Source: Puccinia triticina (taxonomy: Eukaryota; Basidiomycota; Pucciniomycetes; Pucciniales; Pucciniaceae). Taken from it: a stretch of DNA of 64,000 nt. The notes under the pieces were generated by a model, which saw only the letters and a program-made list of their open reading frames with translations, had not been told where the DNA came from and made no database searches. The stretch covers positions 2,294,501 to 2,358,500 of the forward strand of contig NC_070574.1 in assembly GCF_026914185.1 (NCBI RefSeq). The letters are read 5' to 3'. Numbering within the stretch: the stretch's first letter is position 1; each line of letters starts with the position of its first letter. Of the stretch, positions 45,749 to 63,287 are shown in pieces. Position numbers and translations under genes: made by a program.

Positions 45749-46107
45749 GTGTTGAAATTAATCAGGTTAAAAGAATTGTGTGTTGTGGGATTTGAACCCA
45801 CAACCTTCTACGTTCATGAGAGCTGCTCTTATACCACTGAGCTAAACACACAGTTGGTCTTACTGGTGATATTTGGATATTAGATCATATAGCTTGGCCC
45901 CTCAAATGGAGCTTGAAGCATATATTCCAACACACCCCCTTGCTTCATGCACCATGAACAAACTATGAATATTGCATATGCAAATCATGTATGTTTGTCA
46001 TGCATCACAGATAATGATTAATGCATAACAATTAGGAAATTTAATATTGCATATGCGTATGGAAGCATGAATATCAAGTATTCACAGGGTTTAGCCAACT
46101 TTAATTC
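45749..46107 (-). mobile_element. Inverted partner of the tRNA-bearing TIR element
   Basis: The left end TGTTGAAATTAATCAGG, a tRNA-like sequence and the body match the complement of 46155-46518 to about 95% by eye. The right terminal repeat is degraded. The two copies face each other with tRNA-like sequences at the outer ends. Confidence 0.75.
45777..45851 (-). tRNA. tRNA-like sequence, probably a pseudo-tRNA
   Basis: Acceptor GTGTGTT/AACACAC, D-arm GCTC/GAGC and T-arm GTGGG-TTCAAAT-CCCAC all pair. The anticodon arm does not pair properly (GCTCTCATGAACGTAGA), though CTCATGA resembles a Met (CAT) anticodon loop. Likely transcribable by Pol III but not a decoding tRNA. Confidence 0.45.
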
Positions 46108-46137: not shown

Positions 46138-46518
46138 TGTTGAAATTACTCAGGTGAAAAGAATTAAAGTCGGCTAAACCCTGTGAATACTTGATATTCA
46201 TGCTTCCATATGCATATGCAATATTCAATTTCCTAATTGTTATGCATTAATCATTATCTGTGATGCATGACAAACATACATGATTTGCATATGCAATATT
46301 CATAGTTTGTTCATGGTGCATGAAGCAAGGGGGTGTGTTGGAATATATGCTTCAAGCTCCATTTGAGGGGCCAAGCTATATGATCTAATATCCAAATATC
46401 ACCAGTAAGACCAACTGTGTGTTTAGCTCAGTGGTATAAGAGCAGCTCTCATAAACGTAGAAGGTTGTGGGTTCAAATCCCACAACACACAATTCTTTTC
46501 ACCTGAGTAATTTCAACA
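46138..46518 (+). mobile_element. 381-bp TIR element carrying a tRNA-like gene
   Basis: Perfect 28-bp terminal inverted repeats begin TGTTGAAATTACTCAGG and end CCTGAGTAATTTCAACA. A tRNA-like sequence abuts the right repeat. No duplication of target could be fixed. TG...CA ends and internal tRNA raise a TRIM-like alternative, but the terminal repeats are inverted, not direct. Confidence 0.7.
46417..46491 (+). tRNA. tRNA-like sequence, second copy
   Basis: Same fold as the minus-strand copy at 45777: acceptor, D and T arms are intact and boxes A (TTTAGCTCAGTGG) and B (GGTTCAAATCC) are present. The anticodon arm reads GCTCTCATAAACGTAGA and does not close; CTCATAA resembles the Met anticodon loop. 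Confidence 0.45.
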
Positions 46519-59318: not shown

Positions 59319-60105
59319 AGGCGTGCAGCTAAGATAGATTACCGGTTAACGATAACCGGTTAACGCGATAGCCTCCTCGCTAGCGCCCCCAGCTTCTTCA
59401 CCGCTGAGCGCCACTTGCGTGATCCTGTAGCGACGTGACGAAAGGATGGCCAGGCTGAAACCGTAATTTGCCGGAGTGGCGTGATGCGCTTGGCCATGAA
59501 AGCTTTTTAGCTGAACTTGTCACACACACACATGCGCCCGATCGGCTGTACCGTGTTCTGGGTTAATCAACGCGACGATCGTCAGTAGCAAGATGACCTG
59601 ACGAGTTGACGCCTCGCGCACGCTCACATCCATGACGCCTTTTCCAACATTTTTTGAGCAGCGCGCGTCAGCTTCAGGTCATGTCTCAGCTGATCAGCAC
59701 GCCATCTGCTTATCGTCCAATCAAACCTGGAACCTGGCACATGCGTACATACATGACGCCTTTGAACATTCAGCTGGGCTAACCCAAACCCGTCATGCCA
59801 AGAAGCTAGGTGGAATTTTTGTGTCAGGTGCCTTGTACCCTCAGGCGATTAGAAGTTGGGGGCGCATCATTGCACCGCTGATTGGTTTTTTTCACTAATT
59901 TTCCCGGCGTAATAGTAACGAGGTACTTTAGGACATGTGACACACTTCTCCCAGCTTCATTTGTCTCTGAGAAGAAAGCAAATGTCCCCATATCTGATAA
60001 AATTGTCACCAACATCTGCGCCGAAGATATATCAGAAACCAACCAACCAACCATCAGGTATGTTATCCTCGCCACTCTGGTTGCTTGAATTAACATACAG
60101 CAGCA
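59319..60105. other. Upstream region of the unknown gene pair
   Basis: An ACCGGTTAACGATAACCGGTT direct/inverted repeat lies at 59340-59365. The rest is moderate-GC sequence without a supported frame. 60031-60105 (CAGAAACCAACCAACC, TAACATACAGCA) is repeated before the next start codon at 60405-60479. Confidence 0.5.
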
Positions 60106-60432
60106 ATGGCCACCGCATCGACCCCTGCGAAAACCCAACGCTACCGCGCCCTCGATGTCTGGAATGCTTTGAAGAAGCGGGATTTTGAATACGGCCTCAA
60201 CCTGCTTATCACCGGCAAGTGGACCGTTGACGGCGTCGTCAAGGACGGCCTCAGCTTTCTCGACACTCAGGCTGGCAGCGAGCGATGCCAGGAGGCGGCT
60301 GCAATCGCCTTGTTCCTTCGTTGTATTGTCGTCGATTTCCTCAAAGAGGATGGTCTCGACAAAGAGTTCGATGATCTCGTCACCGATTACCGTGTGACAT
60401 CACCAATCAGAAACCAACCAACCGACCATTGA
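60106..60432 (+). CDS. Truncated 5' tandem copy of the unknown protein
   Basis: This ATG-started frame of 108 codons matches the first 97 residues of the following gene at about 82% identity by eye (17 differences). It then diverges after DYRV into 11 unrelated residues. The start codons are 374 bp apart and the upstream leader is duplicated too, so the unit is promoter-proximal region plus the N-terminal coding part. Amino-acid divergence shows the duplication is not recent. It may be expressed as a short N-terminal module or be a pseudogene. Function unknown. Confidence 0.5.
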   Translation: MATASTPAKTQRYRALDVWNALKKRDFEYGLNLLITGKWTVDGVVKDGLSFLDTQAGSERCQEAAAIALFLRCIVVDFLKEDGLDKEFDDLVTDYRVTSPIRNQPTDH

Positions 60433-60479: not shown

Positions 60480-61445
60480 ATGCCCGCCTCATCGACCCCT
60501 GCAACAACCCAACGCTACCGCGCCCTCGATGCCTGGAATGCTTTGAAGAAGCGGGATTTTGAATACGGCCTCAACCTGCTTGTCAGCGGCGAGTGGATCG
60601 TTGACGGCGTCGTCAAGGACGGCCTCAGCTTTCTCGATGCTCGGGTTGGCAGCGAGCGATGCCAGGAGACGGCTGCACTCGCCTTGTTCCTTCGTCGTAT
60701 TGTCGTCGATTTCCTCAAAGAGGAAGGTCTCGACAAAGAGTTCGACGATCTCATCACCGATTACCGTGTGAAGCACGTTTCTGACAGGGACTGGACTGCA
60801 ATTTTCAAGATCGAAGATGTCCGCCTCGAGAACGCGCCTCAGTATGACTTCATCAAGCAGGCCATCATCGACAAGATCGGCAGCAAATGGGCAACGTTCC
60901 TCGGATTGGCCCGCACGCTTACCTCGTTCAGCGTCCTGACCGACATGGAGGCGGGTATGCCTATCCGCTACCGTCGCAAGAACGACGTCTTGGTCGAAAC
61001 CTCAAAGGAGCAACGCGATACCGGAATGGGTGAATATCACGATATCGAGTTTGCGATGCGCAAGGAATTCACCGCGCTCTCATTCGATCTTATCGAACAC
61101 GTGGCCAGTACCGTTCTTGGCAAAAAGGCCTTACCGTTCGGCGAGGAGGCTCGTACTCTGCCTCACATTCTGGAACAGGCGCGTGAGATCTTCCACTTCT
61201 CCAGCGCCAACAAGATCAATCCGGGCCACAAGGAATACCCCATCACAATCGGCTCGTTCTCCGCGTCCACGATCATCCTGATTTACGCCTGCTACCACTA
61301 CAGCATTCCTATCACGGAATGCATGCCCCGCCTCAAATACGACGGACCAATTCGCGCAGCTCATGACGAGCCTGCTGAGAAGACCGACTCCGAGGCGCTG
61401 GAAGCCCTCAGCCTGGATGATCGGGCCTCCGGCGCCCCTTGTTGA
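60480..61445 (+). CDS. Unknown protein A, 321 aa, intact
   Basis: The frame runs uninterrupted from ATG 60480 to TGA 61445. The protein is mostly soluble and probably helical, with no signal peptide and no clear membrane anchor; one hydrophobic stretch is SASTIILIYACYHYSI near residue 260. The C-terminus is acidic. Third codon positions are strongly G/C (GCC, CTC, GAC, AAG), unlike the AT-rich surroundings, which suggests a selected gene, possibly of different origin. I do not recognise the family. It is followed by 150 bp and then the intron-bearing leader of protein B on the same strand. Confidence 0.7.
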   Translation: MPASSTPATTQRYRALDAWNALKKRDFEYGLNLLVSGEWIVDGVVKDGLSFLDARVGSERCQETAALALFLRRIVVDFLKEEGLDKEFDDLITDYRVKHVSDRDWTAIFKIEDVRLENAPQYDFIKQAIIDKIGSKWATFLGLARTLTSFSVLTDMEAGMPIRYRRKNDVLVETSKEQRDTGMGEYHDIEFAMRKEFTALSFDLIEHVASTVLGKKALPFGEEARTLPHILEQAREIFHFSSANKINPGHKEYPITIGSFSASTIILIYACYHYSIPITECMPRLKYDGPIRAAHDEPAEKTDSEALEALSLDDRASGAPC

Positions 61446-61592
61446 ATTATATGCATATTCGAATTATGAATATGAAGCTTTCAAATCAATTCTCACTCGC
61501 ATCTTGAATATCATCGAGTTAAACCTAACCTATCCGAAAATTCCCCCACATACAAAACCGACTCGACCCGCACCAACTGCTAGTCTTTTCTT

Positions 61593-61994
61593 CACGCGTT
61601 TACATCACAAAGACCCGTGAAGAAGAGACTAGTAAGTAAAATCACCTTCAACCTCAACAGCAACAACAAAAAACTAACAACTCTTTCTATCCTCTTTGTT
61701 TTCTCTTTTCCCTTTATCATTTTTCCTATACGTAGATCAATTATCTCTTGTGCGCGTCCTTCACCCGAATCTATCATCCAAATCAAATCAAAAATCATCA
61801 TAAAATATCCCTGCGCTATCGCAGGTAGGCTCTTTTTCTATCTTATATGATTCATCCTTTTCTTTTCGTCATCACTCAATTCTAACTGTTTTATTCTATA
61901 TTTTTCATGTCATCGTATCTTAGGTGTGTGTGTTTGAGAGTCGTCGTTGTCGTCCGAGTCGTTGTTCATCAAGGATATTATCTTCATCATAAAG
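61593..61994 (+). other. Intron-containing 5' leader of gene B (native copy)
   Basis: Three exons are defined by comparison with the spliced copy downstream: 61593-61631 (39 nt), 61736-61824 (89 nt) and 61924-61994 (71 nt). Intron 1 is 61632-61735 (GTAAGT...CGTAG). Intron 2 is 61825-61923 (GTAGGC...CTTAG, branch CTAAC). A third donor, GTTCGC, follows at 61995. Exon 2 ends in a CTGCGCTATCGCAG dyad. The exons have stops in all frames and are likely untranslated. Confidence 0.75.
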
Positions 61995-62066
61995 GTTCGC
62001 TAGTTTATACATTTTATTGTTTTTCATTTCTCATTCATCTATATTATCAATAATAAAAAAAAAAAA

Positions 62067-62336
62067 CACGCGTTTACATCACAAAGACCCGTGAAGAAGA
62101 GACTAATCAATTATCTCTTGTGCGCGTCCTTCACCCGAATCCATCATCCAAATCGAATCAAAAATCATCATAAAATATCCCTGCGCTATCGCAGGTGTGT
62201 GTGTTTGAGAGTCGTCGTTGTCGTCCGAGTCGTTGTTCATCAAGGATATTATCTTCATCATAAAGGTGTGTGTGTTTGAGAGTCGTCGTTGTCGTCCGAG
62301 TCGTTGTTCATCAAGGATATTATCTTCATCATAAAG
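62067..62336 (+). repeat. Spliced (processed) copy of the leader, exon 3 doubled
   Basis: Exons 1 (62067-62105, 39 nt), 2 (62106-62194, 89 nt) and 3 (62195-62265, 71 nt) are joined exactly at the native splice sites, and exon 3 is repeated (62266-62336). Only a few substitutions separate it from the native copy. A run of 12 A lies directly before it. Exact intron loss shows an RNA intermediate. Confidence 0.85.
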
Positions 62337-63287
62337 ATCGTCTGGTCGAATTCACCCAGAATTTACACCCCTGCCTCTACCACTTACAAGGTTACGGCAC
62401 CGCCCGTCCTCACGTATGTCAAGAGCGAAGCAAACGGCGGATGCTACCGGTTGGTCAAACCCGAGGAATACGGAATTGAGAATGAACCATCTTGGAAGCT
62501 CGGCGGCTTTAGCATGTACAACATGCTGCAGACAGGCTCCCTCCTGTCATCATCTGATGACAGCGAATACGTCGCCACCTTGGAGAAGAACGACGTCACC
62601 CACCGCCTCACGATCTTTGGCTTTTTCCACAACGAATATCCAGCGGCCACCGAGAATGGAGGTATCGATCTCGTTACATTGATCAACAAGGTATGCGGAG
62701 CGGGCGCCAGCGTTGTGAACGTGACCCTGGAGAGCATCGAAGGTGGTTTGAAGCTGGACGTCAATGATCAAACCGAAACGATCAGTTTCCTATCGCTTGC
62801 CGCTGCATGCAGCAGCCTAGCCAGACAGCACAATCTCCACGACACGTTCCTTGCGCATCAGCGCGACCCGGCCATCAGCAGCGCGTATCGGATGCAGAAC
62901 AAATCCATTCCCTACACCTACAACCACATTGAGATCTCGACCTCCGCGCATGAAGAGAGGAAATGGGGCAAGCTTCTGGAAAAGGTTCAGTCGACTGAGG
63001 AGCCGCTGTATGCCAACCTCTTCACAGCCGGCAACGCAGCATACAGCATCCGCGACCAGACGGAGGCCGATGCCTTGATGCGGGTCAACAATGTCAATCA
63101 GAAGATCAAGAGGTTGCTCGCCGCCCATCCCAACCACGCGGTCTACCTGACTGATGAACATCGCGCTAAATGGGAGGCATCCACATTCGCCGGGCAGAAG
63201 GGCGGCAAGAAGCAGAAGAAGGGCGGGAACGCTTCCAGGGCTCAAGGAAGTGATATTGAGGTTTTGTCCATAGTTATGTCATACTAG
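62337..63287 (+). CDS. Unknown protein B, about 316 aa, start unresolved
   Basis: The frame is open from 62280 to TAG 63287 and has gene-like, G/C-ending codons from about 62340. The first in-frame ATG is at 62514 (MYNMLQTG), but coding-like sequence precedes it (PPVLTYVKSEANGGCYRLVK), so the true start is upstream, non-AUG or lost. It follows directly on the spliced leader copy. Visible features are an Ala/Ser/Leu-rich helical middle and a basic Gly/Lys tail (GQKGGKKQKKGG) that could bind nucleic acid. There is no signal peptide. I do not recognise the family. It has the same codon style as protein A and is co-oriented with it. Confidence 0.6.
   Translation: MVWSNSPRIYTPASTTYKVTAPPVLTYVKSEANGGCYRLVKPEEYGIENEPSWKLGGFSMYNMLQTGSLLSSSDDSEYVATLEKNDVTHRLTIFGFFHNEYPAATENGGIDLVTLINKVCGAGASVVNVTLESIEGGLKLDVNDQTETISFLSLAAACSSLARQHNLHDTFLAHQRDPAISSAYRMQNKSIPYTYNHIEISTSAHEERKWGKLLEKVQSTEEPLYANLFTAGNAAYSIRDQTEADALMRVNNVNQKIKRLLAAHPNHAVYLTDEHRAKWEASTFAGQKGGKKQKKGGNASRAQGSDIEVLSIVMSY

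Follow-up and report, generated by a model that had tools for sequence, protein, structure and literature searches.

Ordinary copia long terminal repeats (LTRs) are simple U3-R-U5 units, and LTR elements have to keep a poly(A) site inactive in the 5' LTR and yet use it in the 3' LTR. Furthermore, introns should be lost when an element passes through spliced RNA. In the passages covered of a foamy virus study, a splice donor was described near the start of the RNA, and it was reported that U3 nucleotides, present in the RNA of the 3' LTR only, lengthen a stem-loop and make the donor less accessible in that RNA than at the 5' end; suppression of the poly(A) site was found to be independent of splicing (PMC3694450). 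In the portions covered of another report, introns of Penelope-like elements, which have terminal repeats, were described as surviving retrotransposition, their retention being attributed to a different mode of replication, perhaps self-priming on an antisense template (PMC3846280). Here we describe a solo LTR derived from a Ty1/copia retrotransposon and located in a 64,000-nucleotide stretch of the Puccinia triticina genome (NC_070574.1, positions 2,294,501 to 2,358,500; hereafter the window). This LTR holds an intron-bearing leader (E, exons E1 to E3) and, downstream of it, a spliced leader (e, parts e1 to e3), and we propose, with a probability of roughly 0.75, that e is renewed by the replication cycle set out below.

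The first-pass annotation of the window had pointed at 61593-62336 to a leader present once with introns and once exactly spliced, with exon 3 doubled. We observed this anatomy directly (Table 1): the repeats of exon 1 and exon 3 are perfect, that of exon 2 departs from identity only at 61772 (T/C) and 61785 (A/G), both introns have the claimed GT-AG borders, and the reported poly-A run is a stretch of 12 A at 62055-62066 which abuts the 5' end of the spliced copy. The exact exon junctions also support the suggestion that the introns were lost through reverse transcription of spliced RNA. Neither chance nor an assembly error, which had been raised as a possible cause, accounts for the arrangement, as it recurs in the genome and across the family; the exon-1 pattern gave 96 exact genome matches (49 on the plus and 47 on the minus strand), compared with none for a reversed control. 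The search covered a single rust genome (122.8 Mb in 18 contigs, with the window on contig C17), and copy numbers from similarity searches are lower bounds, only the best candidates having been scored.

The window feature is not the leader of a host gene. Over 929-931 bp it shares 99.4-99.5% identity with each of the two LTRs of a full element on C8, which lie 5343 bp apart, and given this pair and the flanking CCCCT duplication the window copy is a solo LTR. Direct LTRs with TG...CA ends and 5-bp target duplications were found in all eight full elements examined, as at the window copy, together with the polypurine tract (PPT) GAATTGAGGGGG just 5' of the 3' LTR. The primer-binding site (PBS) directly 3' of the 5' LTR reads TGGTAGCGAGAG in six of the eight and TGGTAGCAAGAG in the other two; a single tRNA pattern was tried for the primer and had no matches. 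In the C10 element one open polyprotein frame of 1483 codons has seven Pfam matches, with Retrotran_gag_2, Pol_BBD, gag_pre-integrs (below its cut-off), rve (barely above its cut-off), SH3_retrovirus and RVT_2 in this order, and the closest named relative of the polyprotein, at 72% over 82% of the region queried, comes from Puccinia striiformis. The idea that exon 1 holds a phenuivirus-like terminus was dropped once the LTR pairs appeared. The exon-1 pattern had no matches in viral_contigs.

Among the 96 pattern matches there are 31 neighbouring exon-1 pairs less than 600 bp apart, and LTRs related at under 80% identity have one plan in common: U3, E, usually AATAAA, e and the PBS. This recurrence is a direct observation. 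Both leaders were present, at least in part, in 43 of the 55 LTRs examined; three had e only (both L016 LTRs and L035), and two, L043 and L054, were interrupted before e was visible. In the 38 LTRs parsed in detail, GT...AG borders were found for intron 1 in 36 and for intron 2 in 35, the departures falling in five LTRs (L018, the second LTR of L020, L024, L048 and L049) that show a deletion, a lost intron, a changed acceptor, an interruption or a parsing artefact, the last including the intron 3 start as parsed in L018. The branch motif CTAAY was found in 11 of the 13 first introns and in 9 of the 12 second introns, compared with 0.39 expected per 100 nt from U3 and exons. In 10 of the 13 cluster representatives an exact AATAAA is found within the 22 nt that precede e1, compared with 1.0% of sequence windows elsewhere in these LTRs. 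The spliced copy holds exon 3 once in six LTRs, twice in 30 and three times in one (n=37, L049 being left out). Single LTRs depart from the plan in various ways: L018 has two e blocks with intron 3 between them, L024 has lost intron 2 alone, L038 has lost it too and is also without e, and L016 has lost everything between E1 and e2. L055 and L056, which are 4.8 kb apart and apparently belong to one element, have both forms in one LTR and E only in the other. It was also seen that L049, L054 and L045 are interrupted by other sequence, probably nested transposons, and that in 9 of the 13 clusters the joining of e1 to e2 creates a CTAAY, which the spliced copy alone has and which might serve intron 3 as a branch site.

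The proposal draws on the concerted identity of the two leaders. In 31 LTRs from 13 clusters (L018 and the second LTR of L020 being left out of this analysis), an LTR's own E and e were 94.6-100% identical, with a mean of 98.3%, the closest match between cluster representatives was 79.6%, a difference of at least 20%, and in a tree E and e grouped by cluster. Their likeness also scales with the age of the element: where both LTRs of an element could be compared (n=11), the more the two LTRs had diverged, the more E and e had diverged as well (Spearman 0.78, P 0.005). Both the identity and its scaling are plain observations. Pooled divergence was 44/3845 (1.14%) for E-e and 20/4038 (0.50%) for LTR-LTR, the latter figure being taken for L020 from U3 and intron 3 only and for C4 from U3 and intron 1, with the e copy of L049 excluded. 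Because an LTR's own E and e are near-identical, those of other clusters are distant, and E-e divergence tracks LTR-LTR divergence, it appears that spliced RNA supplies a new e in every, or nearly every, replication cycle and that e does not stem from a one-off insertion. The first-pass annotation had suggested cDNA recombination with the source locus or template switching; what holds of this is that a spliced copy is joined to its unspliced source during reverse transcription, by strand transfer, while the single event that it implied does not.

A hairpin may explain how introns are lost at one end of the RNA and kept at the other. The stem of this hairpin, 17 bp long, forms between the final bases of U3 and a segment that runs from the end of exon 1 into the first base of intron 1. 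In an alignment of 31 of 32 rows (L009, identical to the window there, was left out), holding 26 distinct sequences, 98% of the stem cells were paired compared with 47-55% when the stem was slid, and the covariation score and the number of cells with two-sided change were both above all 500 shuffles. When the window LTR was folded, the RNA containing U3 reached -31.7 kcal/mol (z -7.4) and the RNA from the start site -6.7 (z -0.3); the latter cannot form the stem, because the 5' arm is absent from it. The predicted accessibility of the first donor was 0.10 with U3, 0.52 without it and 0.50 with another U3 piece of equal length, and U3 lowered it in each of the 37 LTRs compared, a set that has many sister LTRs in it (the second LTR of L020 was left out). 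These predictions suggest that the hairpin should hide the first donor in the RNA of the 3' LTR only, giving spliced 5' ends and unspliced 3' ends. Two other pairings were noted in the leader. Exon 2 ends in a small hairpin abutting the donor of intron 2, with CTGCG..CGCAG in several clusters by eye and CTGCA..TGCAG in L023, which suggests a second structured donor. In all 31 rows with both motifs, exon-1 GTGAAG is matched by exon-2 CCTTCAC (15 rows) or GTGAGG by CCCTCA (16 rows); of the 32 rows L043 is without the exon-2 motif, and the two combinations, the only ones seen, are clumped by lineage. In RNA without U3, exons 1 and 2 might pair with each other in this way.

In the cycle that we propose, transcription would begin at E1 in the 5' LTR. 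U3 upstream of E1 ends in TCA in 38 of 38 LTRs and the spliced copies begin with (T)(C)A followed by CGCG, and it is because they begin there that the start site is placed at the CGCG of E1. The 5' end of the RNA would be spliced, with E3 linked to an acceptor of the e copy that lies downstream; this would double exon 3 and remove the promoter-proximal AATAAA. At the 3' end the introns would be kept, the U3 arm of the hairpin hiding the first donor there, and AATAAA would direct cleavage just inside e1. Minus-strand strong-stop cDNA made from the spliced 5' leader could then anneal to e1 at the 3' end of the RNA and be extended through the unspliced leader, giving a new LTR that again has both forms; in this manner the introns would survive reverse transcription and e would be rewritten from E. 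The cycle predicts by-products, namely LTRs with e alone (the L016 pair and L035), retention of intron 3 in a leader (L018) and an exon 3 count of one to three. The two e blocks of L018 are as expected if intron 3 had been retained in the 5' leader of the parent, the loss in L016 is as expected from strand transfer at E1 instead of e1, and LTRs with E only could come from deletion between E3 and e3. We consider it rather probable that, as a lineage, these LTRs carry spliceosomal introns through reverse transcription, with intron-bearing and pre-spliced leaders side by side, a position-sensing hairpin through which one sequence is spliced at the 5' end of the RNA but not at the 3' end, and a pre-spliced copy that provides the homology needed for first-strand transfer, the spliceosome and reverse transcriptase writing it anew each cycle.

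Several points weigh against this account. The two-copy state is not universal, as seven of the 55 LTRs have E only (L031, L053, L036, L039, L044, L056 and L038), and in 3 of 13 clusters there is no exact AATAAA before e1. E-e divergence is about twice that between LTRs, so rewriting may skip some cycles, although divergence between the parental LTRs would also explain it; a ratio near two agrees both with rewriting when the parent replicated, to which the divergence of its own LTRs is added, and with occasional skipped cycles. The second exon 3 of the spliced copy (e3b) is about as near to E3 as the first (e3a), which needs a mixture of splice acceptors. Covariation in the stem is thin, with one strongly compensatory pair (C-G in 14, U-A in 12), and the three pairs with two-sided change were reached by 79 of 500 shuffles and the ten further pair types by 340 of 500. 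Related sequences may exceed shuffles even when no structure is present. Finally, the start site, the 3' end and poly(A) site, splicing in vivo, the role of the hairpin and the site of strand transfer are all deduced from sequence.

The LTR architecture could hold while the inverted repeat acts as a promoter element at the DNA level, the 3' introns staying in place because cleavage outruns splicing. That the repeat is near-perfect as DNA too, and that covariation is limited, would agree with this. However, one pair is most often U-G (21 of 26) and another is frequently G-U (11 of 26), combinations that pair in RNA only, and the drop in predicted donor accessibility with the U3 arm is found in every one of the 37 LTRs; we therefore regard a DNA element as somewhat unlikely.

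It may be asked whether in each cycle the cDNA jumps, with no homology, from the capped spliced 5' end to the poly(A)-proximal 3' end, the spliced copy being added behind the poly(A) signal by template switching in place of annealing to e1. The A run at the junction, which has 12 residues in the window and around 13 in the LTRs of C8, could be taken in this sense, as could the bases before CGCG, which vary at the junction (TCA 16, ACA 11, TAA 6, GTA 2, AAA 2 and TTA 1; n=38) while U3 has a constant TCA. Yet most of the junctions listed are without a long A run, and the length and sequence of intron 3 are largely conserved within clusters, which a fresh jump to a poly(A) tail would not preserve, making such a mechanism unlikely. 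That the 12 A are the remnant of a poly(A) tail was likewise rejected as a general explanation, most of those junctions having no long A run.

It is also conceivable that a single spliced duplication arose in an ancestor and was inherited by all families, gene conversion keeping E and e alike. The plan is common to 13 of 13 clusters, so that it probably had one origin, and conversion between neighbouring repeats is common. Nevertheless, one old duplication would give large, shared differences, whereas those observed within clusters are mostly private: 58 are confined to one insertion and 5 are shared in eight of nine groups, the ninth (C2/C4/C9, with 118 private and 2 shared) being left out as inflated by a mis-parse of the interrupted L049. 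Conversion would moreover tend to strip introns from E or add them to e, and E-e divergence grows with the age of the element after insertion, no continuing conversion being seen. An inherited duplication thus seems very unlikely, and renewal of e by the replication cycle is preferred.

That a host-gene leader was retrocopied into its own third intron and drives protein B, as the first-pass annotation had it, could draw on the exact exon junctions and the adjoining open frame but may be dismissed almost entirely, as the whole arrangement lies inside one LTR, with LTR boundaries and a target duplication, the unit is dispersed as LTR pairs around copia elements, and proteins A and B are a single open reading frame (ORF) of which B is the 3' half. 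The two align to consecutive parts of one Dissoconium aciculare protein (P0003), and it is from these matches that B is recognised as the 3' half; the window LTR evidently sits within this unrelated ORF and has split it. Relatives of the interrupted ORF are few (one from Dissoconium aciculare, three from Fusarium oxysporum and two further proteins), and it gave no Pfam and no PDB match. Its patchy spread suggests horizontal transfer or an endogenised mycovirus gene. In the genome the ORF is a single locus, its sole other match being a partial duplicate just upstream of A, at window positions 60031-60397, which takes in the start of ORF A and its upstream sequence at 91-93% identity; the one frame tried there, 60107-60430, holds two stops.

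Table 1. Features of the window LTR and of the reading frame that it interrupts (window coordinates)
Feature	Coordinates	Strand	Remark
Interrupted ORF, 5' half ("protein A")	60480..61439	+	78% to residues 6-292 of P0003
Target-site duplication CCCCT, left	61435..61439	.	read from sequence
Solo LTR, Ty1/copia, 928 bp, TG...CA	61440..62367	+	C8 element identity, boundaries checked
LTR promoter part (U3), upstream of putative start	61440..61592	+	placed from spliced-copy beginnings, (T)(C)A followed by CGCG
17-bp hairpin, 5' arm, across putative start site	61580..61596	+	
Exon 1 (E1), intron-bearing copy	61593..61631	+	39/39 with 62067-62105
17-bp hairpin, 3' arm	61616..61632	+	spans exon 1 end and first base of intron 1
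Intron 1, GTAAGT...GTAG	61632..61735	+	one CTAAY
Exon 2 (E2)	61736..61824	+	87/89 with 62106-62194
Intron 2, GTAGGC...TTAG	61825..61923	+	one CTAAY
Exon 3 (E3)	61924..61994	+	71/71 with 62195-62265 and 71/71 with 62266-62336
Intron 3 start, third donor-like sequence GTTCGC	61995..62066	+	ends in proposed poly(A)-signal region
AATAAA, proposed poly(A) signal	62052..62057	+	just 5' of spliced copy
Spliced leader (e)	62067..62336	+	e1 62067-62105, e2 62106-62194, e3a 62195-62265, e3b 62266-62336
LTR tail	62337..62367	+	in full elements the primer-binding site TGGTAGCGAGAG comes directly after
Target-site duplication CCCCT, right	62368..62372	.	read from sequence
Interrupted ORF, 3' half ("protein B")	62373..63287	+	65% to residues 293-537 of P0003

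Two further features were noted away from the window LTR. A long tandem array with units of about 42 or 84 bp (L011, 2026-3413) adjoins the C16 element, and two tRNA-Phe-like genes, one with the anticodon aaa, lie on opposite strands of the window at 45776-45852 and 46416-46492. LTR elements derived from tRNA have been reported in Puccinia triticina, in the part covered of that source (PMC10886601).

If the proposed cycle is correct, it would answer both the loss of introns through spliced RNA and the opposite demands on the two poly(A) sites, since the promoter-proximal poly(A) signal would be intronic and the unspliced 3' end would give the introns back. Which splice acceptor the parent RNA had used would then be written in each genomic copy, so that splicing history could be read from DNA alone, and the E-e pair would be a clock inside a single LTR with which solo LTRs could be dated in the absence of a partner.

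We found no account of intron-bearing LTRs kept through a pre-spliced duplicate in a partial literature search that took in splicing and introns of LTR elements, Penelope, and the copia elements and solo LTRs of Puccinia, mostly at the level of listings, and this is accordingly weak evidence; an intron in a vector leader (PMC5542766) and the bacterial gene ltrB (PMC4256276) matched in wording and are unrelated. Like foamy virus, the family appears to mask a donor in the RNA of the 3' LTR in a U3-dependent manner, here by folding prediction in 37 of 37 LTRs. A further mark of donor masking of the foamy virus type is the suppression of the 5' LTR poly(A) site by U1 bound at the donor. The family differs in having a 17-bp stem and three introns and in being a fungal copia element, and the passages covered of the foamy virus account mention no introns or spliced duplicate inside the LTR (PMC3694450). 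In the C10 frame the integrase precedes the reverse transcriptase and no env family is among the seven Pfam matches, which does not agree with membership of the retroviruses. Penelope-like elements have pLTRs and a GIY-YIG endonuclease; in contrast, the present family has a PBS, a PPT and an rve integrase, as in classical LTR replication, and its C10 frame pairs that integrase with RVT_2, not with GIY-YIG or a Penelope-type reverse transcriptase. The family resembles Ty1/copia in its gag, integrase and reverse transcriptase order, its TG...CA LTRs, its 5-bp duplications, a PBS beginning TGGTAGC and a purine-rich tract, but unlike Ty1/copia its LTRs hold spliceosomal-type introns together with a pre-spliced duplicate of the leader.
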